Shown here: piece by piece, positions 21,712 through 39,212 of the stretch | Position numbering within the stretch: the stretch's first letter is position 1 | How the letters are laid out: each line of letters starts with the position of its first letter | Source of the DNA: a virus | IMG/VR virus record: IMGVR_UViG_3300020439_000010 | Location: 1 to 49,279 of that record | Reading direction: 5' to 3' (one strand) | DNA: 49,279 nt | Notes under the pieces: model-generated | What the model saw: only the letters and a program-made list of their open reading frames with translations | Databases searched by the model: none | What the model was told of the DNA's origin: nothing | Made by a program: the position numbers and the translations under genes

Positions 21712-24700
21712 GTGGCTGTACCTCCTGGATTCAGACCAAAGCTAACAGCTAGTCAAGTATCTAATTATAAAAGATTATATGACCAGCAACCTGATAAATT
21801 CGACGAAAATACAGTACAAGCTATAGAACAACACGCTGAGTACTACAAACTTCCATTTTCAAAATCTAATAAAACTTTTTTAAAACAAGCTCGTAGTGCT
21901 GTAGGCCAAGCAGGAGCTGGTTTCGTAGAAGGCTTTACTACGTTTGGTGGTGGTGGACCACAACCTGAAAATGATGTAGAAGCAATAGCTAGAAACCTTG
22001 GACACCTAGCTGGTTTTGTAGGTTATGTGCCTACAATAGGTATGAAAAGGCTAGGCTTAAATAGGTTAGCTGAAACTTTAAAAGCATTAAAAGGTCAGTC
22101 TCTTCCAATGCAACTTGCTACAGGGGCACAAAAAAGAGCAGCTAAAACAGTAAGACCTATTTTTGAAAAAGCTATAGAAGGAAGAGAAGCTTCTAAGAGT
22201 GCTGCACTTAGATTTTTACAAAAAGATACTACTCAAGATGTAGTTGGAGGAGCATTCCATTTAGGTGTAGCTAGTGCAGTAAGTTCTTGGAAAGGTGGAG
22301 TAGACCAAATGTTAGAAGGCCTTATCTTTGGTGCTGGTGCAGGAGGAGCATTTAGAACGCTTGGTAACGCTGTTAAAACAGGTAATGAAACAGCAGATAA
22401 AACAATTAGAGGTTTAGCAGGTTCTTTATTTCAAGGATTGCCTTCTTCTGTTAGAGGTGATACAACCCCTCAACAAGTATATAATTATGTCTTAGGTGCC
22501 TATTTTGGAGCAAATGAATCTCCTATATCTGCTAGGCAAAGTAAATTGCACATTGCAAAAATGAGACAAACTACAGACCCTGTTACGGGTAAGCTAGGAG
22601 TCTCAGACCCTGAACTAGTTCCTGGCTTTAAAAACTATAGCAAGGAAACTCAAGACTTAATTGTTAAAAAAGTTAAAGAAGAAATGTCTCCTGATGATCC
22701 TGCTTTTCAATACGAAGTAGCAGAAGCTGGACAAGTACCAGAACTTAATAGAAAACAACAAGAGATAGAAAACTTTAACATTAAAAGAAAAGCAGATATA
22801 CAAGAACTTGATGCACAAAAAGGACTAAACAGAGGTTTTGCAGGTGAAGAATTAGTAGAGATAAACAAGCTTCGTGAAGATGTTGACCCTCAGATTGTGC
22901 CTGAAAAATTAACAAGGAATGCTAAAGAGTTTGTTGATGATTTTATTACAACTAAAGATATAAATGAAAATATAAAGATAGCATCTGAAATAGATACTAA
23001 ATGGAATGAACTAGTTAATAAAAACATGGAGACTAAAGTAAATCCTGCTAATGAAATGATTGAGTTTGTTAATAGTAAATACGGTGAAAGAATAGCTGAA
23101 ACATTAGAAGGAGGAGCTGGTGAAAGGTTTTGGATAAATTTAGGTCATAGAAAATTACGTGAAATGCCTGTAAGAAGATTGTCATTAGTTAATGGTAAGA
23201 TAGAAGAACTTGCCTGGGATAAATCCATGGCAACTATGTCAAGAGCTGGCAACAGAAAACATCTTGTTCATGAACCTAAGATTATGGAAACTATATATAA
23301 TAAAGATTACCAAGGTGAAAAACCAGGTACATCTTACGCTGTTTTAGATAATGTTATATATAAGACTAGAACAGGTCTTAGAGAGCTTACAATACCTGAA
23401 TATCAAAGATACCTAGAAAGAATGTATCAAGATTTTGCTGGTATGAAATATCCAGAAGCAGTTACTAAAGCACAACAAAGGGTCACTGGTGAACTATCAA
23501 ATGCTTTAAAAGAAAGATATAAAAAAGATTTTTATTATTATAGCGGCAAAGGAGATTCTGAAAATTTATATTTTGTTAAGATGCATCCTTTGACTCCTAA
23601 AAAAACTGAAGATATAAACAACGCATTTAATAAATCACTTAGCACTATTATAAGAAGTGAAGCTGTAGAATTAAAAGATAAACGACTTTTTAGAACAAGA
23701 GTCAAAGAAGATAGAGAAGCTTTTGTAGCAAAGTATACTGACCCAGCTCTTAAAAAAGAATATAGAATGTCAAAAGAAGAAGCTATTGAAATATACAACA
23801 GAAGTTACTTGTCTAATATATTATATGATATTAGAATAAATGGATTCCAAACATCAATAGACAATAAAGGAGTTATACAAAATCTTGATAAAGTACTTGG
23901 TACAGGATATATTAACACAGCTAAAGACTTTAATAAACGTGCTCAAATATTACTCACTAACGGTTATTCTGCTGATCCTTTGCAAACTAAGAAGTTTATT
24001 GAAAAGTTTTCAAAACAAACTTTAGAAGAATTATTCGAAAAAAAGCAACCAGCAGACACTTTTTCATTTTATTTAGTTAAAGATGGTATAGGTCGAGAAT
24101 TAATTAAAGATATAGTAGTAGGTAAAACTCCTAATAGTTTAACAGTTCCATCTACTGATGGAGCTATAATAGCACCAGAATACGTTATAAAAGCCTTAAA
24201 TAGGCAAGCAGGTATACCAGAGGAAGGTGGAGTCAATAAATCATTTTTCTTGTCAAGAAACAGCACTGACGGAGGTTTATTAGGCAAGTATATGATATTC
24301 CCAGCTAGCCCTAAGCTAGAAGCTTATATGACTAGAAAAAAGATACAATTTATTGTTCCTAAATCTGCAGCAAAAGCTATGGGTGAAAGAATAAAACATA
24401 TGGGTGAGTATACATATGAAAATAATCAACCTTCTATAAAGAATGCTAAGAAATTTTATATACCTATACAGGACATAAAAGTTATTTTATCAGAAACAAC
24501 TAGTAGTAAGTTTGTAGAACCTAAAAAAATACCTAAACAATTATGGACAAACTACAGTCCTTATGCATTCTTTAATTCAAAAGACACTCCTTTTAGAGAA
24601 CAAAAACAATATCAAATAGAGATGCAAAGAATATTTGATGACATGTACAATGACTTAATTACACAGGAAGTAAACGGAAAAAAAGAATTTAATGATAAGA

Positions 24701-27700
24701 TAGATATCTTAATGAATGATCCTGTTAAAAATGAAGCACTTGTTCCTGAGCTTATAAAAAATATAGATAAGATAGGATTAAAAAATTTATTAGATGCTAT
24801 TAAAATGCCAGGGAATGAAAAGTTTGCTAATGAAGCTTACAGAAAAATACATAGACTAAACGATGATATTGTAAATGAAATGTATGCAGAGGGAGAGTTA
24901 ACGTCTAGAGATTTAGAGATACAAAGAACTAACTCAGGTGACTATAGAAGCGTCAATGAACGTATACTTAGTCTAGTTGATAATAGTTTAGCAGGGTTTT
25001 TGCATAAATATCCACGTGATTATAGAATGGCTGTTATGCGTAATTATTTTATTGATAGAATAACTAGACCAACAGTTGAAAATAGTGCTGCAGCTAGGAT
25101 GAGACCTTATGAAATAGGTATGTCTAGAGATATGATTACTAAAGACTTAGAAGTTAGAGACGATGTATTTTATTTAGGTAATCAATTCAAAGATATGAAT
25201 ATTAATATTAGTGGTATAAAAAGCATAAAGGGTAAAAATATTAGACTAGGCGATTTATGGGGTAAACATAAAGATAATCCTGAAGCAAAAGAATTATTAG
25301 AAGCATTAGTTGTTCGTGTACCTATGGACTCTATGTCTGGTGCACAAGTATTAAAATTTAAAGGGTTCACAAATACTAATGATTATGGAGTATTGTTACA
25401 CGGTAGAAGTATGGAAGCATTAGGAGGTGCAGACCTTGATGGTGATAAAGCATTTGTATTTTTTGGAGGTAAAAATCCAGATGGTTCTGGGGCTGGTTTT
25501 AAATCAGATTGGAAAAACATGTATAGATGGTCTAAAAATGAATACGTTAAAAATGGTGTTGAACAAGATGCCAAGTTAGCTATTGACCCTACTACTAAAA
25601 ACCAAACATATTCTGATCAGTTAGCTTTTACTGAGACTAGTGAAAATGGAATATACAAAGATATTATACAAGACAGAACTAAAAATCCAGGATTGCAATA
25701 TTCTCCTAATGTTAGGAGAGATATATCAGAAGCCGCAGCACAAGGACGAGCTAGACTTGGTGGAGCTGTAACGCAGAGTGCGTACTTAAGAGCAGCTTAT
25801 GCAGCAATTAGAAACTCTAATGAAGGTTACTTTGATTACACTAGGAAGGTTGGTAAAGGCACTAGGACTATAAGGATTATACCTAAAACAGATAATTTAA
25901 ATTTAGAAGCTTTTCGTGGAAGAACAAGAGCGTCTATAGGTTTATCATCTGACCCTATGAATGAAGCTGGATTAAATTGGACATCATCTAAACTATTAAA
26001 ACTGCAAGCAGATAACTTATTTACCTATCAAGTATTGAAAAAAAATAAAGACGGTAAGATGGTTGTAGATAAAAAAGCAAAAATAACTGATGCAGATAAA
26101 TTAAATTTAAATATACAAAGTCCTGTTAAAGTTGCTATGGAAGTAAATAATGCATTGTATGGTAAAAATTTTACTACTGGCAATCATCACACAATGTGGG
26201 AAATAATGGGCAAGTTAAATAGTGTTGATAGACCTAAGTCTGGTTTTTATTATTCTAATAATAGAAACACATTTTTACCTAGAATAGGATATGAACTAAG
26301 AAAGTTTGATTGGAACGATAGTGTTATAAGAAGAATATCCTATAAAAGAATACAAGAACTATATAAAGAACATAATGCTAATACCTCAGAGTTAAATATT
26401 ATAACAGAAGCATTAGGCAGAGGCAGTGCTAAAGTACCAGAAAGCGATATTGTTAAGTTTGTCTATGGTAATGAGTTGCATAATTATTCTACAGCATTAC
26501 AATTATCTAGAATAAAAAATAATAAAAAATTATTTACTAACTCTAGAATAGCTAAGAATTATCCTAATGCTGATAAAGACGATGTGTCTAGATCACTTGC
26601 AATTAAAGATGTAGTGTCTAAAGCAGAAGATTTCATTGTAAAAGATTTGTCTGACATAGCTAGTTATAAAGATATTAAAAAATATATTAAAGATATAAGC
26701 AAAAAAGATATAGAAAAAATATCTAAACTAGTAGATGAAAGAAAAAAGAACAGTTATCTTATGCAAAAACAAGACAGAACTCCAGAGATGACTAAATCTA
26801 AAATGGAAGATTTTGGAGATGTGCAAACAAAAGCTAGGACACAGTTTGAAACAGACGTTTTAATTAAACAAGATAGAGATGGATTAAGCCCTCAAGGTAA
26901 AAAACTTTACGATTCTTTATTTCTTAGTAGTATATGGAGAGGGAAAATAGACGTAGCTAAAAGATTAAAAGATAAGACTGACCCGAATATTAAGGAAACT
27001 GCAGATACGATACTTGATGCTTCTTTTAAAACAGGGCTTTCTAAACTAGGTTTCGCATCTAAAGAGATACCTGACGTTGCTGTTAAATCAAATTTAAACG
27101 AGTATCAAAAACTTTTTGATTATTCTATTGAGCGTATTGACCCTAAACAAACTAGTAAAAACATTGAAGTATCTAATAAAATAGATGAAAAAATTGGTGG
27201 TGTTTCTGCTGTAGAGGACCCTTACAAAAATGAAGCCAATGGTAAATATGTAGATGAGTTAGCTCCTTTTGAAGGTTTATACAAAGGAAAAGTTTTTGGT
27301 AAAAAAGAAAAAGCTATTGTAGAACTAAAGAATCATCTTGATCATTATCCTAATTTACTTGGTAAAAAGTTTAATGGTTTTATTAGGTCTGTTACTAACA
27401 AAGATATAAATAGACTTACATTAGAAGATGTTGAGATGGTTAATAGGTATTTAAAAGAAGCTAGAGAAGGCACTTGGTGGTCAAATATATTAGGTAAACC
27501 CAATAAAGAGATAAGAAGCTGGTACAATTTTATGTTTCCTAGAACTATTGATACCGATGTTATGCGTAGAGAAATTAAACTAGTTCAACAAAGAATGCCT
27601 GTAGAAACCAAAGAAGGTATGCGTATACGTAATGTTCAAGCTCCAGAAGGCATGATGACTAAATTGCAATCTGTTATACATGAAGCACAGCAGCAAGGTA

Positions 27701-30216
27701 CTCAAAGGTTTGAAGTTGAAAATAATAAATGGTTAGAAAAAATCAATCCTTATATAGATGGTATACCAGAAGGTAGAGATTTATTTAGGTATGCAGTAAG
27801 GAAAAGAGAACTAGGTGTAGTTCCTTATATTTCTGAACAAGTATCAAGGAAAGAGAAACCTTTTGTATATAATGAGTTTTCTAAAGAGTATATAAATAAA
27901 TTCAATGAGCTGCAAAAAGAAATAAATTGGAAAAAATTAAAAGACCAGAAGTTTACAGTGTTACTTGGAAAAGATACCGTAAGGCTTACTGGTGAGCAAG
28001 TTGTTAATAGATTGAACAATATAATTACTGACCAGTACAGACTTGTTTCAAAATGGATAAGTGGTCGTATTGACCCTGACTTAGATTTACCTAATAATAC
28101 TATATTTGAAAGAGATTATGGTCGTTTATCAGAAGGACAATCAATAAAGAAGTTTACTGAAAAATATTATAAATCTTTATTAGATGGCAAGCCTATAGAC
28201 ATGACTGTAGGATTAGATGGTTTACAATTATTATCTCATAATCAATTGTTAGGATTGTCTAGGAATCCTGAAATTAAAAAAGTATTAAGAGATCAAGCTC
28301 CTACACCAACAAGGTTTATACCTTTTGAAAGTTATTGGACTCACTTTGGAAGTCAAAACCCTAAAGAAGCTACTAAGAGATTAAATGATATTATTGAAAA
28401 GATTAGCAAAGATACTACTATTGACAAAGCTAGTAGAGAAAAAGAAATTGCTAAACAAATATATCACTTTAGACAGTTAACTAATGATTTACAAGTTACA
28501 TCAGAACTTACTACCAAGTATGCCTTGTTTGAAGAAGCTATACAAAAAATAGCTGACAAAGGTAAATTAAATAAAAATGAATTAAACAAGTTATTAAAGG
28601 CTCCTAGGATTGGCTCGCAACAAAAAAGAGATGCACATATTCCTGGATGGAGTGTTGAACCTGAGATAATGTCACAATATATGAAGAATGTTATCGATGC
28701 TTCTTATAAACAAGCTGCTCATATTATAGCTAGGTCTGATATATACAAATTTAGACAAGAGTTTTTTAAGAAAACTAAAGACGCTGATTTAACTCAAAGA
28801 TGGTCAGACTTTTACACAATGTTTGCACAGGATGCTGTAGGTTATCCACAACAAATACCAGAAAGAATATTAAATGACCCTAAAATGGGTATCAAAGGCA
28901 CACCTTATTCATGGGTGAACGATACTGCAGTCTTAAACTTTGTTAACAAGGTTCGTAAAAAATTAGGTATAAACGAAAAATACAATGTTGATGAATCTTT
29001 AAAAGATTTTGATTTTAATACTTTAAGCAAATGGAGTAACCTAGAAGCTAAGTATCAGCTTGCTACGTTACTTGCTCACCCTAAGAGTGCTGTAGCAAAC
29101 TTATATGGTGGTAGTACACAAACATTAATATCTACTGGATTTAAACATTTTAGAAATGCTAGAGACCCAAAATACCTGTCAACTTTTGTTAATGAAAAAT
29201 TTAAAAACAAAGAAGCTGTTACTGAATGGGTAAAAAGCTTAGGCGTTGTAGAGGACTTTTTATTATATGAAGCTGGTTTTAATCCTAAGTTTAGAGAAAA
29301 AAATTATAAAGATTTTTTAAGTGAATCAGTATCACTTATTAAAAAAGATTTTAATACAAGTGACCAAACTTTAAGAAGCATTGCTGCAAAATATAAAATA
29401 AGTGAAAACGCTTTTAACAAGGCTGCTTGGTTTATGCGTGTTCCTGAAAGAACACTGCGTAGAGATGCTTTTATGGCTCACTATTTACAAGCTAGAGAAA
29501 AGTTTGCAGGTGCTATACAAAAATACGATGATCCTATTTTAATTAAAATGGCTAAAGAAGGTGTTAAGTCTACACAGTTCTTATACTCTGCACCATTTAG
29601 ACCTGCATTTGCTAGGTCTGCTATGGGTAAAGCTCTTACTAGATTTCAACTATGGGCTTGGAACTCTGTTAGATTTAGAGGTGATATAATAAAAGAAGCT
29701 AGGATAAGAGGATTCAAAGAAGGTACTATGGAGTATGACAGATTTAAACGTCTTGCAGCTTTAGATTTATTAATGTTTGGACTAGCTAATACTTTTATGT
29801 ATTCTATCTTTGAAAATACTTTACCACAACCTTGGTCATGGGCACAAGATTTAGCTGATTGGTCATTTGGTAGTGAGACAGAAAGAAGTCGTGCATTCTT
29901 TGGGCAGTGGCCTCAAGGTGTTGCTCCTCTGCAAGCTATAACTCCTCCTATTGCTAGACCTTTACCAGGTTTATTTAAAGCTATTGTTGAAGATGACTAT
30001 AGTACACTAGGTGGTTATTATGCTTGGAGTATGTTGCCATTTGGTAGAGTAGGGTATGATATATTTGGTAATGTATTGCAAGGAAACAAAGGTGGATTAA
30101 TTCAGAACCCTTATAGATTTGTTGAAAAATTAACTGGTATTCCATATCAACAAATACCAAGAGAGTTAGAAAAATATAACGATGACGAAATGTTAAGACC
30201 TAGTTTTATTAAATAA
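21712..30216 (+). CDS. Giant virion protein (2834 aa) with two-barrel RNA-polymerase-like core
   Basis: It starts at GTG 21712 after GAGGGG. Residues 176-222 are Gly-rich and hydrophobic (GLIFGAGAGGAF), as in ejection proteins. A first possible double-psi barrel spans about 814-890 (STDGAIIAPEY, then GGLLGKYMIF with Lys859, then IQFIVPKSAAK). A second has VVRVP (Arg1202) and, 39 residues on, GGADLDGDKAFVFF with Asp1241, Asp1243 and Asp1245, the layout of the cellular RNA polymerase beta' active site (R-x-P...NADFDGD) and of single-chain QDE-1/YonO/crAss-phage enzymes. 'AAAQGRARLGGAVTQ' follows at about 1340. The C-terminal third has 'HPKSAVANLYGG' (near 2455) and a hydrophobic segment near 2690. 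A virion-carried RNA polymerase is my preferred reading; an ejection protein with a chance DxDGD loop is the alternative. Confidence 0.65.
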   Translation: MAVPPGFRPKLTASQVSNYKRLYDQQPDKFDENTVQAIEQHAEYYKLPFSKSNKTFLKQARSAVGQAGAGFVEGFTTFGGGGPQPENDVEAIARNLGHLAGFVGYVPTIGMKRLGLNRLAETLKALKGQSLPMQLATGAQKRAAKTVRPIFEKAIEGREASKSAALRFLQKDTTQDVVGGAFHLGVASAVSSWKGGVDQMLEGLIFGAGAGGAFRTLGNAVKTGNETADKTIRGLAGSLFQGLPSSVRGDTTPQQVYNYVLGAYFGANESPISARQSKLHIAKMRQTTDPVTGKLGVSDPELVPGFKNYSKETQDLIVKKVKEEMSPDDPAFQYEVAEAGQVPELNRKQQEIENFNIKRKADIQELDAQKGLNRGFAGEELVEINKLREDVDPQIVPEKLTRNAKEFVDDFITTKDINENIKIASEIDTKWNELVNKNMETKVNPANEMIEFVNSKYGERIAETLEGGAGERFWINLGHRKLREMPVRRLSLVNGKIEELAWDKSMATMSRAGNRKHLVHEPKIMETIYNKDYQGEKPGTSYAVLDNVIYKTRTGLRELTIPEYQRYLERMYQDFAGMKYPEAVTKAQQRVTGELSNALKERYKKDFYYYSGKGDSENLYFVKMHPLTPKKTEDINNAFNKSLSTIIRSEAVELKDKRLFRTRVKEDREAFVAKYTDPALKKEYRMSKEEAIEIYNRSYLSNILYDIRINGFQTSIDNKGVIQNLDKVLGTGYINTAKDFNKRAQILLTNGYSADPLQTKKFIEKFSKQTLEELFEKKQPADTFSFYLVKDGIGRELIKDIVVGKTPNSLTVPSTDGAIIAPEYVIKALNRQAGIPEEGGVNKSFFLSRNSTDGGLLGKYMIFPASPKLEAYMTRKKIQFIVPKSAAKAMGERIKHMGEYTYENNQPSIKNAKKFYIPIQDIKVILSETTSSKFVEPKKIPKQLWTNYSPYAFFNSKDTPFREQKQYQIEMQRIFDDMYNDLITQEVNGKKEFNDKIDILMNDPVKNEALVPELIKNIDKIGLKNLLDAIKMPGNEKFANEAYRKIHRLNDDIVNEMYAEGELTSRDLEIQRTNSGDYRSVNERILSLVDNSLAGFLHKYPRDYRMAVMRNYFIDRITRPTVENSAAARMRPYEIGMSRDMITKDLEVRDDVFYLGNQFKDMNINISGIKSIKGKNIRLGDLWGKHKDNPEAKELLEALVVRVPMDSMSGAQVLKFKGFTNTNDYGVLLHGRSMEALGGADLDGDKAFVFFGGKNPDGSGAGFKSDWKNMYRWSKNEYVKNGVEQDAKLAIDPTTKNQTYSDQLAFTETSENGIYKDIIQDRTKNPGLQYSPNVRRDISEAAAQGRARLGGAVTQSAYLRAAYAAIRNSNEGYFDYTRKVGKGTRTIRIIPKTDNLNLEAFRGRTRASIGLSSDPMNEAGLNWTSSKLLKLQADNLFTYQVLKKNKDGKMVVDKKAKITDADKLNLNIQSPVKVAMEVNNALYGKNFTTGNHHTMWEIMGKLNSVDRPKSGFYYSNNRNTFLPRIGYELRKFDWNDSVIRRISYKRIQELYKEHNANTSELNIITEALGRGSAKVPESDIVKFVYGNELHNYSTALQLSRIKNNKKLFTNSRIAKNYPNADKDDVSRSLAIKDVVSKAEDFIVKDLSDIASYKDIKKYIKDISKKDIEKISKLVDERKKNSYLMQKQDRTPEMTKSKMEDFGDVQTKARTQFETDVLIKQDRDGLSPQGKKLYDSLFLSSIWRGKIDVAKRLKDKTDPNIKETADTILDASFKTGLSKLGFASKEIPDVAVKSNLNEYQKLFDYSIERIDPKQTSKNIEVSNKIDEKIGGVSAVEDPYKNEANGKYVDELAPFEGLYKGKVFGKKEKAIVELKNHLDHYPNLLGKKFNGFIRSVTNKDINRLTLEDVEMVNRYLKEAREGTWWSNILGKPNKEIRSWYNFMFPRTIDTDVMRREIKLVQQRMPVETKEGMRIRNVQAPEGMMTKLQSVIHEAQQQGTQRFEVENNKWLEKINPYIDGIPEGRDLFRYAVRKRELGVVPYISEQVSRKEKPFVYNEFSKEYINKFNELQKEINWKKLKDQKFTVLLGKDTVRLTGEQVVNRLNNIITDQYRLVSKWISGRIDPDLDLPNNTIFERDYGRLSEGQSIKKFTEKYYKSLLDGKPIDMTVGLDGLQLLSHNQLLGLSRNPEIKKVLRDQAPTPTRFIPFESYWTHFGSQNPKEATKRLNDIIEKISKDTTIDKASREKEIAKQIYHFRQLTNDLQVTSELTTKYALFEEAIQKIADKGKLNKNELNKLLKAPRIGSQQKRDAHIPGWSVEPEIMSQYMKNVIDASYKQAAHIIARSDIYKFRQEFFKKTKDADLTQRWSDFYTMFAQDAVGYPQQIPERILNDPKMGIKGTPYSWVNDTAVLNFVNKVRKKLGINEKYNVDESLKDFDFNTLSKWSNLEAKYQLATLLAHPKSAVANLYGGSTQTLISTGFKHFRNARDPKYLSTFVNEKFKNKEAVTEWVKSLGVVEDFLLYEAGFNPKFREKNYKDFLSESVSLIKKDFNTSDQTLRSIAAKYKISENAFNKAAWFMRVPERTLRRDAFMAHYLQAREKFAGAIQKYDDPILIKMAKEGVKSTQFLYSAPFRPAFARSAMGKALTRFQLWAWNSVRFRGDIIKEARIRGFKEGTMEYDRFKRLAALDLLMFGLANTFMYSIFENTLPQPWSWAQDLADWSFGSETERSRAFFGQWPQGVAPLQAITPPIARPLPGLFKAIVEDDYSTLGGYYAWSMLPFGRVGYDIFGNVLQGNKGGLIQNPYRFVEKLTGIPYQQIPRELEKYNDDEMLRPSFIK

Positions 30217-31789: not shown

Positions 31790-32332
31790 TTATGTGCGTT
31801 TTACTCTTTTGACTTTATTGATGTCAATACCAGGTGGCATCTCCTGTCCTGCGTTAAATGCAGCAATAGCAGCTTTTCTGGCTTTTGATTTATCTATCTT
31901 TTCAACTATCTCTACCTTTTTAAAGTCGCTATGTATTGTATGTGGATCAATGTCAACTGGACCAAACGTTTGATACAATTTGTAACGAGCTACATTAGTT
32001 TCATATACACCATCATTACCTACTTCTTCTATAACAGCAGGTAATAATTTTTTATGAAAGAAATCTTTAGTTCGTTCTAATCCTTTACGTTTGTTCTTCA
32101 ATCTGTCAATTTCATCTTTTAGTGCTTCAACTTCTGCGTCAATGATATGTTCTTTTTTATTGAGCTCTAACATGAAATGATCAACATTTTCAATCTTTGT
32201 TCTTACTTGTATTTGTAAATTGTTTTTTTGTTTTGCAAGTTCTTCAGTTCTATCTATATCTTTTTCTAACAATAATTCTTGCTCTACCTCTATCAATTCA
32301 CTAACTAGTTGAACAGTTGTTTTCTTTTGCAT
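31790..32332 (-). CDS. Gp157-family coiled-coil protein, 180 aa
   Basis: The first 100 residues are a long heptad-rich coiled coil (EIDRLKNKRKGLERTKDFFHKKL), followed by a small strand region (YKLYQTFGPVDIDP) and the close 'IDKSKARKAAIAAFNAGQEM'. This is the shape of phage Gp157 (siphovirus Gp157 family), which ends 'dK..i..al..G..vpG'. Family members lie in recombination/replication clusters and are thought to protect the phage or assist annealing, without a firm function. Its start overlaps the helicase stop by one base. Confidence 0.75.
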   Translation of the reverse strand: MQKKTTVQLVSELIEVEQELLLEKDIDRTEELAKQKNNLQIQVRTKIENVDHFMLELNKKEHIIDAEVEALKDEIDRLKNKRKGLERTKDFFHKKLLPAVIEEVGNDGVYETNVARYKLYQTFGPVDIDPHTIHSDFKKVEIVEKIDKSKARKAAIAAFNAGQEMPPGIDINKVKRVKRT

Positions 32333-34179
32333 CAGTTATCCTCCATTATTCTAAAAGTTCTACCGAGTGCTTTACTTTGTTGATATCTGATTTGTTTCTT
32401 TTTAAGTCTAAACGATGGTGTCCATTCTAAATTAACACTAAATAAATCACCGTCACTATTTTTGAATATTTCCATACGTTTACTTTTTTCATTAGATGAC
32501 CCTGTAATACCTATTACTTTCCTTGATGCATTTTCTATAGCACCGCTACCTTTAGCAGCATACAAGTCCATTATCTGACTACGTGAGTATTCTCTTGCTA
32601 CTTGAGATACTTGTATAATAATAATATCTTCGTTAACAGCTAAGTTTGATAAGTTATGACTAATGTAATTTAGTTTTTCGTATTCGCCACGTTTATTATA
32701 TGGCACTTCTACTAAATCTATATAATCTATAACTACACATTTAGGTTGCAGCTTTTGTATTTTCTCTTGGATTTGTTGTATTGTTGGGCTAATAGATTGC
32801 ATAACGATATGTTGTAGCATGTTTTCATGGTACCTGTACATATCTTTATAATTATCTACTATCTCTGTTTTAGAACAATCAGATACAATTTGTAAGTTTC
32901 TTCTGTGCATAACAAAACCTGATAACTCTAATGATAGAAATAATGTAGGTATTTGTTTATCTGTCATTATTTCATCAGTTTCTGCATTGTATGCTAATAC
33001 AATGTTTTGTGCTAGAGCTGTTTTGTTTGCACCTGTGCTACCAAAAATAGTTACAAGTTCGCCTGGATAAATAGTAGCGTCTTTATCTTGAACACCAAAC
33101 ATTTCAGCTAAATCTATTGTTCTACCTGTAAAGTCTGTTTCAAGTCTTTCTTCTAGTTCTGACTGTAAGTCTGTACTATTTTTAACATCAACTAAATAGT
33201 CTTTGCGTTTGTAATGAATACAATTTGGTTTGCAATACTTTTCCATTAGTACATCTTTACAACCAAATTTATATCCTACTTTGTATGTATCTTCTACTTT
33301 TTGATTTACAATCGCTGGTTCTAGTTGATCATTATTCCAGTGCATTAATGCAGCTTTAGTAGCCTGTGAAGGAATACCGTGTCTATTAAAATGAGATGCT
33401 ATTCGCATCAACGTATTATTCCTTGAACCTTCTTGTGGTCCAAGATTATACATTTTCTGTACACATGGTACTATATTCTTAGGCTCTACTGATGATTCTT
33501 GTAATTTAATTTTTGGCACATCTTTTATTACTTTATCTTCTAATTCACCATCACCCCATACTGATTGTCTAGTATAAGTTTTAACATTATTAAGATTCAC
33601 AGCTAGTTCTATTATTTCTTCTGCTTTCTTATTGTTTACTTGATCTAAGGTTAATGGTATTTTATAAAGACAAGATTTTTGATTAAAAGAATATGCACAT
33701 CTGTATATAGCAGTTTTGTTAAGTACGGATAAGTCTACATCACTAAGTAAATTATTAATTGTTTCTTTTACAATAAAAGGTAAGTCTGTATGTCCTTTAG
33801 GAAAATTAAAGACTTCGTTAGTTATTGTAATATGATACCCAGTGCCGCTAAAGTAAACATTATATGAATGTGACTGTACACCTAGTTCGCTTAGTTCAAA
33901 CAATACACTTCTTGTTTTATTAAGTGTATGTGCATCTGTATTTTGACCTTTATCTATGTCAATCAATATATTGTTAATATATCTTTTGCCATGAAAATTC
34001 TTAAAAGTCTTTTTTAATTGATGATATTGTTTACCTTCTTCATCATACAGATATAAGCTCTTGTATACTGCTTCATTTTTTCCGTACTTAGCTATTATGC
34101 TAGGTACATCTTCTTCAGGCACAAGGAGCCCTCTGTTACGAGGACTCCCTATAGCCATCTCATGGTAGAGACTTGCCAC
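32332..34179 (-). CDS. Primase-helicase fusion (AEP-like primase plus DnaB-type helicase), 615 aa
   Basis: The N-terminal 200 residues look like an archaeo-eukaryotic primase core: ILIDIDKG (Asp74, Asp76), SGTGYHITI (His116), then an IYRCAYSFNQKS segment. A Cys cluster (Cys307, Cys316, Cys320) may bind zinc. The C-terminal half is a RecA-fold helicase: Walker A GSTGANKTA (380-388), Walker B CVVIDYID (481-488), and the DnaB signature 'QVSQVARE...AAKGSGAIENASRKV'. It should unwind the fork and lay primers. It starts at GTG, coupled (TAGTG) to the ssDNA-binding gene. No DNA polymerase is encoded, so host polymerase would extend the primers. Confidence 0.85.
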   Translation of the reverse strand: MASLYHEMAIGSPRNRGLLVPEEDVPSIIAKYGKNEAVYKSLYLYDEEGKQYHQLKKTFKNFHGKRYINNILIDIDKGQNTDAHTLNKTRSVLFELSELGVQSHSYNVYFSGTGYHITITNEVFNFPKGHTDLPFIVKETINNLLSDVDLSVLNKTAIYRCAYSFNQKSCLYKIPLTLDQVNNKKAEEIIELAVNLNNVKTYTRQSVWGDGELEDKVIKDVPKIKLQESSVEPKNIVPCVQKMYNLGPQEGSRNNTLMRIASHFNRHGIPSQATKAALMHWNNDQLEPAIVNQKVEDTYKVGYKFGCKDVLMEKYCKPNCIHYKRKDYLVDVKNSTDLQSELEERLETDFTGRTIDLAEMFGVQDKDATIYPGELVTIFGSTGANKTALAQNIVLAYNAETDEIMTDKQIPTLFLSLELSGFVMHRRNLQIVSDCSKTEIVDNYKDMYRYHENMLQHIVMQSISPTIQQIQEKIQKLQPKCVVIDYIDLVEVPYNKRGEYEKLNYISHNLSNLAVNEDIIIIQVSQVAREYSRSQIMDLYAAKGSGAIENASRKVIGITGSSNEKSKRMEIFKNSDGDLFSVNLEWTPSFRLKKKQIRYQQSKALGRTFRIMEDN

Positions 34180-34814
34180 TAAAATACAGTATTAGCGTTT
34201 GCGGTAACGCCATTTGTTATTACTTTAGCTTGTTGAGGCTGATTTGCATCATGTTCCTTGATGTATCCATTTGCCTTCATATAGTCAATATAACTATGCA
34301 AGTCACGTTGATTATCTGGCGTGTTAACTACCATTTTAGGACAGACAGTTTGATAAGAGCGTTTAGCTTTGACGCTCCATTTGTCATAGACAAAACAATA
34401 TATACTTTTTGTTTTATCTTTATCAAAGTCCTGAGCATAGTTTTTGGTGAGGTACGATTGTATATCATCAATCGGCTCATCATCTGCTGTAACCCAGTTA
34501 CCTTGTACATCAACACCGCCATCCCATAATAATGCACTTGAAAGATAATTGATATGTTTCAGTAAGCTACTACCACCATCAATCTTACCGCTTGTATCTT
34601 TATCAAATGTACCTAACAAATTATATTTGTATGGATACTGTGATAGATCATTTTGTAAGTGCACTTCTAGAAATACATCTAAATTATCATATTTAGAATC
34701 TACTTTTCTATCTACAAAGCCAACACATGCAACTTCTTGAAAGCCTAACCAAGGTGGTGGACCCTCACTAAGTGATTGTTTGTTGTTTGTAGTTGCGTCT
34801 CCTTTATAAGGCAT
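34179..34814 (-). CDS. Probable ssDNA-binding/annealing partner, 211 aa
   Basis: It lies between the Sak4-like ATPase and the primase-helicase with TAATG/TAGTG coupling on both sides, the usual place of the ssDNA-binding partner in phages with Sak4. It has an N-terminal strand-rich region (FQEVACVGFVDRKVDSKYDN, LDVFLEVHLQN), a helical centre (SLLKHINYLSSALLWDGG) and a Gln/Asn-rich tail ending in Phe, which is reminiscent of SSB tails. The sequence does not match ordinary SSB clearly, so the function is mainly contextual. Confidence 0.5.
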   Translation of the reverse strand: MPYKGDATTNNKQSLSEGPPPWLGFQEVACVGFVDRKVDSKYDNLDVFLEVHLQNDLSQYPYKYNLLGTFDKDTSGKIDGGSSLLKHINYLSSALLWDGGVDVQGNWVTADDEPIDDIQSYLTKNYAQDFDKDKTKSIYCFVYDKWSVKAKRSYQTVCPKMVVNTPDNQRDLHSYIDYMKANGYIKEHDANQPQQAKVITNGVTANANTVF

Positions 34815-35683
34815 TATGACTCCTGTTCTTTGTATTTAAGGATTTCATTCATTACGCTATCATAATCGAACTCAAGAACTTTCTGGGCAAGTGGTTTTAA
34901 TCTGCTGCCTACAGTTCTTTCATCGTATGCTTGAAAAGAAATATAGAATTTACTATCTTCTTTATTAGCTGTAGCGTACCCAATCACATCTGCTGATGCA
35001 GTCAAGGCATATGAGAGACCACGTGGTAACTCTGGACCTAATTGACTTTTACCATCAGTTATGACTGTGCTTTTCGCATGTGATATAAGCACTAGGTTTC
35101 TGCCTAGCGATTTACATAACAATTGAAACTTTTTAATGATATCAAGATTCTTCTTTCTTGCTTGTGCCCAATCTGCACCCCATGAAGAACCTTCACCCAT
35201 TGCTGTTTGACCACGTTCATCACATACTGCAGCTTCTATCCATCTGTTAATGTGATCTATCGTGTCAATAACAATAGTATCATATGGTAATTTTTTAAGA
35301 TTTTCTTTTAAATAGAAATATACTTCTACCATACTATATACTTCCATTGGTTTACCAACTTGATCACCTGTTCTATGATAGTATTCACGTTCATCGTTAG
35401 GCACAGTTTCTATTACTGGTGTACCTTTTTCTGTTACTTGTTTTCCGTCTATCATCTTTGGTCTAGTTGGTGTGTTTAGTGATGTCACAGTTACTGTGTT
35501 TGCATTATTAACAAAGTCAGAACCTAAGTCTGTGTCTATTAATAAAACACCATCTGCTCCCTTATCACTCCATCTACTAGCTTGTGTTGTCTTACCCGTT
35601 TTGGGCTGACCGATAAAGTACCACGTCAGCCCTTTAGGTAGAGACGACCAATCTGTAGACACTTTACGTATCTTCAAATCCAT
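34814..35683 (-). CDS. Sak4-like RecA-fold recombination ATPase (AAA_24), 289 aa
   Basis: Walker A is GQPKTGKTT (25-33), and LLIDTDLGSD follows at about 47-56. Walker B is TIVIDTIDHI (135-144), then 'GEGSSWGADWAQARK' and 'NLVLISHAKS' with the sensor Ser/His. These define the phage nucleotide-binding AAA_24/Sak4 group, which promotes single-strand annealing recombination and replication restart. The start follows AAGGGA, three bases after the ThiF gene. It is directly downstream of the conjugation cassette, so it is co-transcribed with it and is a candidate target. Confidence 0.8.
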   Translation of the reverse strand: MDLKIRKVSTDWSSLPKGLTWYFIGQPKTGKTTQASRWSDKGADGVLLIDTDLGSDFVNNANTVTVTSLNTPTRPKMIDGKQVTEKGTPVIETVPNDEREYYHRTGDQVGKPMEVYSMVEVYFYLKENLKKLPYDTIVIDTIDHINRWIEAAVCDERGQTAMGEGSSWGADWAQARKKNLDIIKKFQLLCKSLGRNLVLISHAKSTVITDGKSQLGPELPRGLSYALTASADVIGYATANKEDSKFYISFQAYDERTVGSRLKPLAQKVLEFDYDSVMNEILKYKEQES

Positions 35684-35686
35684 AAG

Positions 35687-36349
35687 TTATCCCTTCGGTA
35701 TTATTTGGTTTTTTGTTCGTATTGTCAGTGGCTGTAAGCCAATCCAAATATACGAAAAATAAGGACGATTTGCAACTACATTAAACACTTGGTTAACACC
35801 TAGACCGCCTACAATACTAGCTGTAAAGATGGTGTGTTTCATAGTACATGGTGCTTCATCTACTTCATGAGTAGGAATCCATGTATCCATATAACCATTA
35901 TGTGTTTTTGTAATTGTAACTATTTCCATAGCCATAGCACCCATGCGTAAATCTACAAACCATTCACGATTTTCTTGTTCTAGCCATGTAATATATGCTG
36001 CTAGTCTAGATTCCATGTCGTCTGTGCATACGATCATACAAGGCAAAGTACCGCATGTTTCATCGTATGGTTTGTTATGAAATACCATTTTGTCTGGATG
36101 CACTGCATACATCTGAGTCATTGCTTGTGCTATCTCTGCTTTTGGTTTACCTATTGCATTTTGTGGATACAAAGTTGTACTAAGATTATGTTCTTCTAGT
36201 GTATCATAGTCCCAACCGTGTATGCTATCAAAACCCATAATAGATAAAAGAGGCACTAGCTGTGAGCCAATGCCTCCTAATCCTACAATACCTACTGTCT
36301 TTAGTTTCTCGTTAGGTATCAAGTCTTTGTTTCTGAGAAATCGTTCCAT
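35687..36349 (-). CDS. ThiF/E1-like adenylating enzyme, 220 aa
   Basis: The nucleotide-binding Rossmann loop is GLGGIGS (23-29), then WDYDTLEEHNL with Asp47 and Asn55, KPK with Lys70, and VCTDDMESR with Asp110: the conserved residues that let MoeB/ThiF/E1 enzymes adenylate the C-terminal Gly of a ubiquitin-like protein. Cys168 in 'EAPCTMKHT' sits where the thioester Cys of E1-type enzymes lies and resembles the CTLK of eukaryotic Uba1 (from memory). It is short, with no fused E2 or Rhodanese domain and no zinc CxxC pairs. ATG follows AGGAGG and touches the JAMM gene stop. It is predicted to activate the 87-aa modifier encoded upstream. Confidence 0.85.
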   Translation of the reverse strand: MERFLRNKDLIPNEKLKTVGIVGLGGIGSQLVPLLSIMGFDSIHGWDYDTLEEHNLSTTLYPQNAIGKPKAEIAQAMTQMYAVHPDKMVFHNKPYDETCGTLPCMIVCTDDMESRLAAYITWLEQENREWFVDLRMGAMAMEIVTITKTHNGYMDTWIPTHEVDEAPCTMKHTIFTASIVGGLGVNQVFNVVANRPYFSYIWIGLQPLTIRTKNQIIPKG

Positions 36350-37162
36350 TTATTTAACCTCCTGGTTTACGTTATAATAAGAATCTATATCCTCTGTTGA
36401 ATAACCTGCATCTTCTAACATTTGTGCTCCTTGATGATAATCAGAATATCTAACAGATTCTAACAAAAGCATTTTATCTGCTTTGTTACGTTTCTTTTTC
36501 TTTCGTTTCTTTTTGACATTCCTTAGTCCAAACATATTTACTTGTTTAGAATTATTATCTACTTGCCAGCCATTCAGATTTGTATATCTGCTATAGCCAG
36601 AATATGTAGGTCTAACTGGTTTATTTGCTTTCTCGATTATATCAGCTTCTTTAACCCATTCTGGGTCAACGTTATGTGATATTGGTATGCTAATATCGTC
36701 TATTTCTACTACATGTATATTTTCATACTGATCTTGATAGCCAAAACCAAATGCTAGTTCTTTACCTGGCTTTGATGAAACAACTAAGCTGCAATAGAAA
36801 CCTTCTTTTGGTGAGTTATCTTCTATGGTAGCTTTGTCAGTGCCTGATAAGAATGCACCCATGTTATGATGACTGTGTATCAAACCTATATAACATGATT
36901 TAAGTGATGGATTATCTTCATACGTTTTTCTCATTATCTTGGCAAAATCCTTTGCTTCCCATTCAGTAGAAGCGTGACCGCCTAAATCTAATGGATGGAA
37001 ATGCATGAGTTTGATTGTAGTAGGATAACCCTGTTCGTTTAGCTTTATTTTGTACCAGCCTGGACCAGACCATTCTGTATCTGGAAACCTAGTCAGTAAA
37101 TAGTTGTACTTGTCGTACACTTTCTTGGTCATGGACACTAGTGGTGTTTTGTTTTGCTGCAT
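36350..37162 (-). CDS. JAMM/JAB-domain isopeptidase, 270 aa
   Basis: The complete JAMM metal site is present: Glu30 (TEWSGPGWY), His96-Ser97-His98, then seven residues, Ser106, and Asp109 (HSHHNMGAFLSGTD), preceded by 'YIGLI'. This fold cleaves after the C-terminal Gly of ubiquitin-like proteins, either maturing the precursor or removing it from targets. A Lys/Arg run (216-228) and a short C-terminal helical domain follow. AAGGAGG nine to ten bases upstream fixes the start at 37162, although this overlaps the E2-like gene by 74 bases. There is no NlpC domain, so it is unlike lambda tail protein K. Confidence 0.9.
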   Translation of the reverse strand: MQQNKTPLVSMTKKVYDKYNYLLTRFPDTEWSGPGWYKIKLNEQGYPTTIKLMHFHPLDLGGHASTEWEAKDFAKIMRKTYEDNPSLKSCYIGLIHSHHNMGAFLSGTDKATIEDNSPKEGFYCSLVVSSKPGKELAFGFGYQDQYENIHVVEIDDISIPISHNVDPEWVKEADIIEKANKPVRPTYSGYSRYTNLNGWQVDNNSKQVNMFGLRNVKKKRKKKKRNKADKMLLLESVRYSDYHQGAQMLEDAGYSTEDIDSYYNVNQEVK

Positions 37163-38843
37163 AACTGTAATACCTCCTTATGATTTTGTTTAGTTCATTG
37201 CACACAATCTCTGATTCTATTGCTATTTTATTATTATGTGCAGTTATTGCTGTTTTCATTAGTTCGTCAAATGATGTTGGAATAGTAAACTGTCGTTTGT
37301 ATTCGTTTACACGTGCTCTGTATCTTAAATCTAAATGAGTCCAGAAGTTATCTCCTCTTATTACTAAATTAGAATCTTCAACATAAACAGGTATAAAATA
37401 CTTTTTGATCATGTCGTTTATTATTTTAACATAGTCAATTTTTTGTATCTTTTCTTCAAACTGTGTAACAAAATAATTAATATATCTTGTCATTTCAGTT
37501 CGTTTGCTCAACCTACATCTTGATATTTCACCAAATAAATGAGAGTCAATAGTTTTTAACTTACTTACTAGATCACGTCTTTTATGTGTAAACAATACAT
37601 TAAATTTGTCATTGTATTTTTCATTTACCATATTATCCAGTTGTCTAATTTCGTTATCTATAGAAACTATTTTTTTGATGTATCTTGTGATATATTTTTG
37701 ATTAGGTTTGTCTACTATATTATTAATAACATTATTTTGTTTAAACATATCTCCTATCAAAGCAAAAAGAGGTTGAAATGCTTTACATTGTCTTTTGTAT
37801 CTTTGATGTCTAGCATTATTTCTAAGTTCTCTTGCAATAATATTGTGATGTTCATTATAAATACTAGCTTTAAACTCTGATTTACCAGAACGTAGTGGTT
37901 CAATAAATCCAGGATAATAAAACTTCATATTTATTATGTTGTTCAATTCAGTTCTTCTATTTAACAAAGCTGATATATCTGCTGATGCAATTGCTATTTG
38001 TTTGACTTCTTTAGATTTCATAGCAATCATTTTTGCTCTTGATTTAATTTCTCTGATTGCTGCAAATGCATCTATTAATATATTAGCTCTGTGATTATTA
38101 TTATCAGATTGAACTACAGATGCATATGTATCAAAGAATTTTTCAGCATCATCGTATTCTTGACCTTCATAACCTCTTGCTAGAATAGCATTTCTTACAG
38201 AATGTCTTGGTATTGTATCCCATAACATTTGTACTCTATTAAGAAGCCAATACGGTGATCTTACATTCCATGTATTTACATATTGTGTAAACACATTGAA
38301 CAAACCTAATGCATCGCCTTGTGCTTTGAACCTTTGTATCCTAGTTGAATAAGCACCTAAACAAGGTTGACCAGAACGAACATGAGGATGGTCAGCAAAT
38401 ATTTTTGAACTATTATTATATCTTGGCATAGTCTCTGGGTCATCATCATCTATAAGAGAATTATAAAAATATAAGCTGCCATTGTTAACTGACAATTGAA
38501 CATAAATCTTAGCTAATTTAAATAATTTTCTAGATTTAAGTTTTGGTATACCTAGATATAATGTGAAAGATTCGTCATCTCTACCCATTACATCATTAGC
38601 ATAACCTCCAAGCTGTACTAGCTTGAACATGTGATTTTTTCTTTTACCTATTAGTGCATCATAGATCATAGGCCATTGATTTTCCATTAGTTCTTTTTTG
38701 TTATTAGAACCATCATCCCACCTAAAAAACCTTGTCATAAGTTTTTTAAAACGTTTTTCTGTTGTTGGAAGATTAAAATCAATTAGCCTGTTGTCCCAGT
38801 CTACACATTCAGGTACTAGTTGTGGTGTATACTTTACACGCAT
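37089..38843 (-). CDS. E2-like conjugating domain fused to long helical region, 584 aa
   Basis: Residues about 70-200 read as an E2 fold: strands 'AKIYVQLSV' and 'SLYFYNSLI', then the active-site segment HPHVRSGQPCLG (152-163) with Cys161, corresponding to HPNxxxxGxxCLx of ubiquitin E2s, then a helix (ALGLFNVFTQYVNTW) and 'RSPYWLL' like the E2 crossover helix and its Pro. The remaining 380 residues are basic and mostly helical, with no recognised family. They may recognise a target, DNA or the E1. The start has CAGGAG six bases upstream. The E2 role is predicted from motif and neighbours. Confidence 0.75.
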   Translation of the reverse strand: MRVKYTPQLVPECVDWDNRLIDFNLPTTEKRFKKLMTRFFRWDDGSNNKKELMENQWPMIYDALIGKRKNHMFKLVQLGGYANDVMGRDDESFTLYLGIPKLKSRKLFKLAKIYVQLSVNNGSLYFYNSLIDDDDPETMPRYNNSSKIFADHPHVRSGQPCLGAYSTRIQRFKAQGDALGLFNVFTQYVNTWNVRSPYWLLNRVQMLWDTIPRHSVRNAILARGYEGQEYDDAEKFFDTYASVVQSDNNNHRANILIDAFAAIREIKSRAKMIAMKSKEVKQIAIASADISALLNRRTELNNIINMKFYYPGFIEPLRSGKSEFKASIYNEHHNIIARELRNNARHQRYKRQCKAFQPLFALIGDMFKQNNVINNIVDKPNQKYITRYIKKIVSIDNEIRQLDNMVNEKYNDKFNVLFTHKRRDLVSKLKTIDSHLFGEISRCRLSKRTEMTRYINYFVTQFEEKIQKIDYVKIINDMIKKYFIPVYVEDSNLVIRGDNFWTHLDLRYRARVNEYKRQFTIPTSFDELMKTAITAHNNKIAIESEIVCNELNKIIRRYYSYAAKQNTTSVHDQESVRQVQLFTD

Positions 38844-38866
38844 AGTAACTCCTGTTCTTTATTATA

Positions 38867-38933
38867 AACAGAAACAAGCTGCCTAATATGCCTGCTGAAG
38901 TTATCTTAGGCCCATAGGTCAGCTTGCTCTGTT
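38867..38933. promoter_or_regulatory. Long interrupted stem-loop between modifier and E2 genes
   Basis: Three nested pairings share one axis: AACAGA (38867-38872) with TCTGTT (38928-38933), AAGCTG (38876-38881) with CAGCTT (38920-38925), and GCCTAA (38881-38886) with TTAGGC (38906-38911). It fills most of the 105-base gap between the 87-aa modifier gene and the E2-like gene. It could be a processing site or attenuator that sets a high modifier-to-enzyme ratio. Confidence 0.7.
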
Positions 38934-38948
38934 TTTTGGCAGATATGA

Positions 38949-39212
38949 TTAAATGTTACCTGAGGTAACTTTAGTTGGCATGAAAGCTACATAATCGCCT
39001 TCACGTAACTGTTGAGTAGGGCTAGCTACTTCATCATTAACTGTCACTGATGAGTTTTGCAAACTTAAGTCTATTGAGTTTGCAATGTCTGCAGGTGTGT
39101 TACCTTGTATATTCATTACTCGACCACCATTATGGTACGAAGTAACTGATACACTAGGGCCTTGCTGCACTTGTCTTTCTTGCTCTTCTTGAGCTTGTGT
39201 TGTTCTTGGCAT
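38949..39212 (-). CDS. Ubiquitin-like beta-grasp modifier (ThiS/MoaD-like), 87 aa
   Basis: After a Gln-rich 19-residue tail come a strand (VSVTSYHNGG), a second strand, a helix (TPADIANSIDLSL), then 'SSVTVNDEVASPTQQLREGD' and 'YVAFMPTKVTSGNI'. 'VNDEV...L.eGDyVafmP' is the core signature of ThiS/MoaD-type beta-grasp proteins. The C-terminus is Ser84-Gly85-Asn86-Ile87, so removal of two residues would expose a Gly. I start at 39212, because AAGGAGG lies five bases upstream; a Met fifteen codons earlier has no such site. It is the first gene of the cassette, directly upstream of E2, JAMM and E1 genes. Confidence 0.75.
   Translation of the reverse strand: MPRTTQAQEEQERQVQQGPSVSVTSYHNGGRVMNIQGNTPADIANSIDLSLQNSSVTVNDEVASPTQQLREGDYVAFMPTKVTSGNI

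Follow-up and report, generated by a model that had tools for sequence, protein, structure and literature searches.

The four-gene operon

The virus record IMGVR_UViG_3300020439_000010 of IMG/VR (positions 1 to 49,279; this whole stretch of 49,279 nucleotides is referred to as the window) carries terminase, portal and major head genes. Its minus strand encodes, in transcription order, a ubiquitin-like (Ubl) modifier of 87 residues, a protein of 584 residues resembling conjugating (E2) enzymes, a JAB/JAMM metalloprotease of 270 residues and a ThiF/E1 activating enzyme of 220 residues. An initial annotation, made from the DNA letters, had described these as a full Ubl conjugation set located next to replication genes. 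The four open reading frames (ORFs) are all present where it placed them, the residues it cited are correct (JAB E30, H96-S-H98, S106 and D109; E1 GLGGIGS, K70, D110 and C168; E2 H152-P-H154 and C161), and its reading of the set is supported by the gene order, active sites and processing signature conserved in about 150 related loci. These loci fall into the window's own group (group 1) and a group of crAss-like or related phages (group 2). We regard a reversible phage Ubl-conjugation module as well supported by the sequences, and set out below where its target would most probably lie.

The modifier (38949..39212; minus strand, as for all operon features below) ends in ...KVTSG-NI. Its AlphaFold2 model, with a predicted local distance difference test (pLDDT) score of 79, has strands at residues 20-25, 32-36, 54-58 and 74-79 and a helix at 40-46, and the best folds that Foldseek retrieved for it from the PDB were a TGS domain, Mth1743, TtuB and the Caldiarchaeum ubiquitin (E-values 5e-4 to 9e-4). 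The proposed beta-grasp fold is therefore borne out by model and structure search. The nearest sequence matches, all weak, are to ThiS/MoaD/TGS proteins, the match to Pfam ThiS (4.6e-4) lying just under the curated cut-off. Ser84-Gly85 (codons 38958..38963), with Asn-Ile after it, is the predicted mature C-terminus; it is invariant among 28 aligned Ubls and closes a conserved stretch of the K-x-x-[S/A]-G type. What follows this stretch is variable: among 96 distinct Ubls in which the site could be placed, no residue lies past [S/A]-G in 2, one in 21, two or three in 6, 4-30 in 4 and more in 63, with the longest tails exceeding 200 residues. The pattern implies a precursor trimmed by the accompanying JAB, so that the C-terminal glycine of the beta-grasp modifier would be exposed either directly or by this predicted cleavage. 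Several C-terminal extensions of group-2 Ubls (L091:6256-6930, L107:6492-7229 and others) share a GKNFTQCxTxxL-like segment and an acidic SPYSxxEIxxMFxxL-like tail, and the precursor at L092:6283-7218 bears a ribosomal L7/L12 C-terminal domain behind its Ubl part (Pfam E 3e-10).

The E2-like protein (37089..38843) is made up of N-terminal helices, beta strands, an HPH...C core and a long helical extension, as delineated by alignment, AlphaFold2 and a profile link to relatives. Within a 29-member alignment, whose other members are 12-23% identical to the window protein, H152, P153, H154 (38382..38390), the candidate catalytic residue Cys161 (38361..38363) and G163 are invariant; we take H152-P153-H154 to be the counterpart of HPN in eukaryotic E2s. 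Direct tblastn with the window protein in named phages returned nothing, and the link to crAss gp78-like proteins runs through synteny and a profile comparison (E 2.5e-5), for which cores were aligned around the HPH...C motif as plain MAFFT misplaced it. Cys198 of crAss001 gp78, the counterpart of Cys161, is invariant in 32 group-2 members, where HSH...C is conserved in place of the HPH...C-x-G that is invariant in group 1. Judged by these alignments, HPH/HSH...C-x-G is the most conserved feature of the putative E2 in two diverged groups.

The E2 family is not recognised by public models: searches of Pfam, PHROG, NCBIfam, PADLOC and PDB profiles gave no family match to an E2, and Foldseek with the full-length model gave no significant match to a known E2. 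This could mean that the large protein is no true E2 at all, its HPH...C being a structural or metal site while E1, Ubl and JAB act without it. We consider this improbable, given the conservation of the motif in two diverged groups, the fixed position of the gene in the operon and the recurrence of the motif in a jumbo-phage protein. Moreover, the model (pLDDT 82.6, predicted template modelling score 0.68) runs from helices through beta strands and the active-site segment to further helices, an order that fits E2s. The long helical extension of the model dominates the structure search, which brought up helical proteins, and in a viral structure library the model found one significant match. 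Because of this dominance and the lack of a significant match to known E2s, we grade the protein by motif and context rather than by fold. On that basis the E2 identity suggested earlier, a weaker assignment than those of the other three proteins, is well supported by motif and context and compatible with the predicted secondary structure; neither fold nor profile comparison tied the protein significantly to known E2s.

The remaining two enzymes had been called a complete JAMM protease and a ThiF/E1 enzyme, and in both the active-site set is present and invariant in relatives. The JAB protein (36350..37162), the predicted Ubl-processing and de-conjugating enzyme, matches Pfam Prok-JAB with an E-value of 1e-3, under the curated cut-off, and the JAMM E/H/H/S/D set is invariant in 32 diverse JABs spanning both groups. 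In Flavobacterium phage Fpv1 (L004 3719-6011) an endonuclease gene interrupts the JAB gene, and gaps precede the JAB ORF in L088, L101, L110, L115, L140 and L141, suggesting introns or homing endonucleases in the JAB gene. The E1 (35687..36349) belongs to the ThiF/MoeB/UBA superfamily (Pfam ThiF, 4.9e-13), its PDB matches being E1 subunits of the NEDD8, SUMO and UFM1 pathways. K70, D110, D133, R135 and C168 are conserved in 125 of 125 sequences, and the candidate catalytic Cys168, in PCTMKHT, sits in a C-[ST]-x-K context resembling that of conjugating E1s.

Alternatively, the E1 and the ThiS-like Ubl might supply sulfur as a thiocarboxylate, to be used in thiolating DNA, tRNA or a cofactor, and the JAB would then act in maturation only. 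The sequence affinities of the Ubl and the presence of the sulfur carrier TtuB among its best folds are in keeping with such a role, and JABs can mature sulfur carriers. Yet the set includes an E2-like partner with an invariant HPH...C, which a sulfur carrier does not need, and the E1 cysteine context resembles that of conjugating enzymes. Furthermore, the annotated loci showed no apparent thiolation enzyme, rhodanese or cysteine desulfurase, although no systematic search for them was made. Sulfur transfer is thus quite improbable as the function of the set.

Distribution among phages and genomic neighbourhood

A scan with the E1 alignment found 297 IMG/VR contigs encoding a related E1, of which the best 80 were fetched for the group-1 survey. 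Those reaching far enough show the order Ubl-E2-JAB-E1, mostly followed by Sak4, the 211-residue protein and primase-helicase. All four genes were found in 47 of 86 loci; the others are cut by contig ends, have diverged beyond the Ubl and E2 searches or, in the case of L006, are a trimmed piece of the window. For group 2, a scan led by the crAss001 E1 gave all four genes in 72 of the 77 loci fetched. The search of metagenomic phages proposed in the initial annotation therefore shows the same gene order in two diverged groups, which are joined by profile comparisons of JAB (E 5e-36), E2 (as above) and Ubl (7e-5), and by direct tblastn for E1.

Named carriers are crAss001 (gp79-gp76), DAC15, cr128_1, cr85_1 and cr111_1 (Crassvirales, Steigviridae) and Fpv1. 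Since crAss001, DAC15 and Fpv1 are cultured, the earlier statement that no described lytic phage was known to hold the complete set does not stand. Database labels for the set in these three phages read 'thiamine biosynthesis protein', 'metalloprotease domain' or hypothetical. No earlier account of the module in crAss-like phages was found in searches of open-licence PMC papers, and the main texts checked on crAss001 and crAss-like phages neither mention it nor recognise it as a Ubl system. Scanning 84,980 genomes of bacteria and archaea brought up a single short crAss-like contig, part of a metagenome-assembled genome, and the module is consequently essentially phage-borne. Among 296 genomes of that contig's phylum, all other matches to the E1 profile were far weaker, as for ordinary ThiF/MoeB.

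A further assemblage occurs in the Xanthomonas jumbo phage PhiXhv-15 (L164, 2817-6696), with a related E1, an 892-residue HPH...CLG protein and a small candidate Ubl ending exactly in SGG; no JAB was found in the stretch read. The 892-residue protein has Cys-rich ends that are possibly zinc-binding and E3-like, and the E1 of Erwinia phage Ep032 is similar to that of PhiXhv-15.

Downstream of E1 on the minus strand of the window lie a gene for a Sak4-like annealing protein (34814..35683; phrog_124, 1.5e-25), which adjoins E1 in most group-1 loci, one for a 211-residue protein (34179..34814) kept in group-1 loci, and one for a primase-helicase (32332..34179; phrog_19, 1e-28; DnaB_C, 3.4e-17; PriCT_1). 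These are followed by Gam/Gp157-like and HNH/endonuclease VII genes (Pfam, PHROG). The neighbours first named as Sak4-like and primase-helicase are supported by Pfam and PHROG, whereas the 211-residue protein, which had been labelled ssDNA-binding, has no family match in Pfam, PHROG or NCBIfam. Neighbours of the 72 complete group-2 loci include DNA primase (71), exonuclease (59), uracil-DNA glycosylase (53) and resolvase (41), and those in PhiXhv-15 include DNA ligase and topoisomerases. As replication and recombination neighbours recur across unlike genomes, gene context points to a role in replication or recombination. In many crAss-group loci a conserved gene, gp75 (L002 6654-7466), stands right after E1, with 55 matches in the group-2 set, and its homologues could be a fifth component of the module. 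Elsewhere in the window, an ORF of 2834 residues (21712-30216) has no PHROG match over its first 1329 residues.

The same neighbourhood bears on another possible use, in which the phage would join the Ubl to its structural or packaging proteins, or process them together, as suggested for lambda I and K. Lambda-like tail clusters do hold pairs of JAB and beta-grasp domains (PMC1779556), but the module lies among replication genes, with the structural genes encoded on the other strand, and the main text of the crAss001 virion paper is silent on gp76-gp79. A part in self-assembly is accordingly highly improbable.

Clamp-binding-like motifs and a proposed modification cycle

Peptides that bind the bacterial sliding clamp are of the QL[SD]LF type. 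The region behind the JAB domain in the window contains a similar motif, QVNMF (residues 207-211; 36530..36544), and other JABs have QSNLF, QTRLF, QLTLFD, QATLFD, QLKMFD or QSELPFE there, with QGELPFE in crAss001; an acidic residue often trails the motif, as in QLTLFD, QATLFD, QLKMFD and QSELPFE. Motif density is 1.40 per 1000 residues in JAB linkers and 0.19 in the other ORFs of the same loci, an approximately 7-fold difference. When JABs were clustered at 70% identity, the motif was present in 20 of 88 clusters compared with 5.4 in shuffles, the maximum in 500 shuffles being 12. E1, Ubl and primase-helicase sequences show no enrichment, nor do homologues of gp75.

A second candidate is found at the C-terminus of group-1 E2s, as QVQLF in the window (37098..37112) and as QVHLSF, QVPLFF, QAELF or QSELF in others. 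It lies where the 3' end of the E2 gene overlaps the 5' end of the JAB gene, by 74 nucleotides in the window (37089..37162) and by 41-125 nucleotides in group-1 relatives. Near-perfect conservation of the E2 QxxLF motif was for this reason not taken at face value, and the overlapping JAB frame was synonymously recoded in 39 distinct group-1 overlaps, which are not phylogenetically independent. The E2 tail is open in 39 of 39 against 1.8 expected from recoding. Given an open E2 frame, Q-x-x-[LMI]-(x)-F is kept in 35 of 39 against 17.3 +/- 2.5 expected, which supports the motif more modestly. The base ahead of the JAB Lys is C in 38 of 38 overlaps (6.8 expected); we rejected this bias as a sign of selection on the motif because T at that position would create a stop in the E2 frame, and it chiefly reflects maintenance of an open E2 tail. 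Since the related sequences are not independent, the evidence for the E2-tail motif is suggestive. No match to the DnaN N-terminal domain was found in 13 phage records searched, some of them partial, and the partner of these putative clamp-binding peptides would therefore be the host clamp.

In the cycle that we propose, the Ubl would be synthesised as a precursor and cut by the JAB behind the conserved [S/A]-G. The E1 would then adenylate the new C-terminal glycine and load it on Cys168, and the E2 would receive the Ubl on Cys161 and hand it to an amino group of a target protein, from which the JAB could strip it again. The target most likely belongs to the replication or recombination machinery, and the enzymes would probably be brought to the host DnaN clamp by the QVNMF and QVQLF peptides of JAB and E2. 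Eukaryotic PCNA-linked ubiquitin and SUMO enzymes work by such clamp recruitment, and serve here as a model. Judged on sequence evidence, a complete Ubl cycle is very probable. That the operon forms such a reversible cycle and that the phage uses it during genome replication is, taken together, moderately probable. Action on replication or recombination proteins seems to us evenly balanced, and docking on the clamp is tentative. More speculative still, and rather doubtful, is the wider analogy in which crAss-like and other phages would run a counterpart of eukaryotic PCNA ubiquitination and SUMOylation, a clamp-docked and reversible modification of the replisome favouring phage DNA synthesis or recombination.

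Several observations weigh against a clamp-linked conjugation cycle. Most Ubls keep one glycine at the conserved site and not Gly-Gly. For the E2, beyond the full-length model that led Foldseek to helical proteins, hhalign of its profile with four UBC sequences gave a non-significant E-value of 0.1. The strict clamp motif is absent from 68 of the 88 JAB clusters, crAss-group E2s are without a C-terminal clamp motif, and the E2 motif of group 1, being inside the overlap, is partly dictated by the JAB frame. Finally, siting among replication genes may merely mirror early expression.

The main rival places the module in counter-defence: the phage Ubl would be put on a host defence protein, or the phage JAB would compete with or reverse conjugation by host Bil or by the cyclic oligonucleotide-based anti-phage signalling system (CBASS). 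Bacterial Ubl conjugation, for example in CBASS, serves anti-phage defence (PMC10097602), and a set that is essentially phage-borne could modify or titrate it. However, the set is nearly always complete, in fixed order and beside replication genes, an inhibitor would have no need of a whole cascade, and clamp-like motifs occur in the JAB linkers. Anti-defence genes, by comparison, are usually scattered and variable. Counter-defence is thus unlikely, if less so than the other alternatives. The options first put forward were modification of a replication protein, modification of a host protein, or countering of host Bil/CBASS; neighbours and clamp-motif candidates favour the replication link, and no positive support emerged for the last. 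The replication fork, reached via the host clamp, is the site of action that we favour.

Comparison with known conjugation systems

The window shares gene order, homologous proteins and replication neighbourhood with crAss001 gp79-gp76, DAC15, cr128_1 and Fpv1. Loci of the crAss001 type differ in a long C-terminal extension of the Ubl, a shorter E2, a longer JAB and an E1 that is often extended at its N-terminus. The module is a standard part of the replication gene block in widespread phage groups, among them crAss-like phages from the human gut, and with phi-crAss001 and its host in culture the system is directly testable.

Among prokaryotic systems, the type 6d operons (Iyer 2006, PMC1779556) and PRTRC likewise have separate genes for a small Ubl, a JAB, an E1 and an E2-like protein, but the present set is phage-borne and beside replication genes. 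In type 6d E2s the classical His is missing and a His instead follows the Cys (PMC1779556), whereas the phage E2 has HxH (HPH or HSH) before the Cys. The additional helical protein that goes with type 6d did not appear in the phage set. With PRTRC_ThiF the phage E1 scores 19.7 bits against a cut-off of 144.75, and the other proteins have no PRTRC match in NCBIfam.

Bil (BilABCD), E1-E2/JAB cassettes and type II CBASS Cap2/Cap3 have in common with the module the E1 chemistry, a JAB peptidase and the logic of Ubl conjugation. The E1 matches the PADLOC E1-E2 and BilD models weakly, as the JAB does a JAB model; the match to BilD (2.6e-4) is the sole one to any Bil model. Cap2 of type II CBASS is a fused E2-E1, whereas the phage E1 and E2 are separate, and no CD-NTase was found among the window proteins scanned. 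Bil and CBASS also sit in defence loci, which the phage module does not. Lambda tail proteins K (JAB) and I (beta-grasp) are a phage-borne JAB and Ubl-like pair too, but lambda-like clusters hold only these two domains, among tail genes (PMC1779556), and the JAB-NlpC fusion of lambda has no parallel in the window set, in which Pfam and PHROG gave no NlpC match.

The likeness to eukaryotic ubiquitin and SUMO at PCNA lies in the shared idea of Ubl enzymes at a sliding clamp. It is an analogy, with homology limited to the E1, Ubl and JAB superfamilies and with clamp binding here predicted; if the clamp link is true, it would be an independent case, outside eukaryotes, of Ubl modification coupled to the sliding clamp. 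By the tests made, the module is outside PRTRC, Bil, CBASS and lambda-tail systems and would work like the same general kind. Bacterial Ubl cassettes are mostly read as anti-phage defence, whereas here phages own a complete predicted pathway with a previously unrecognised E2-like family.

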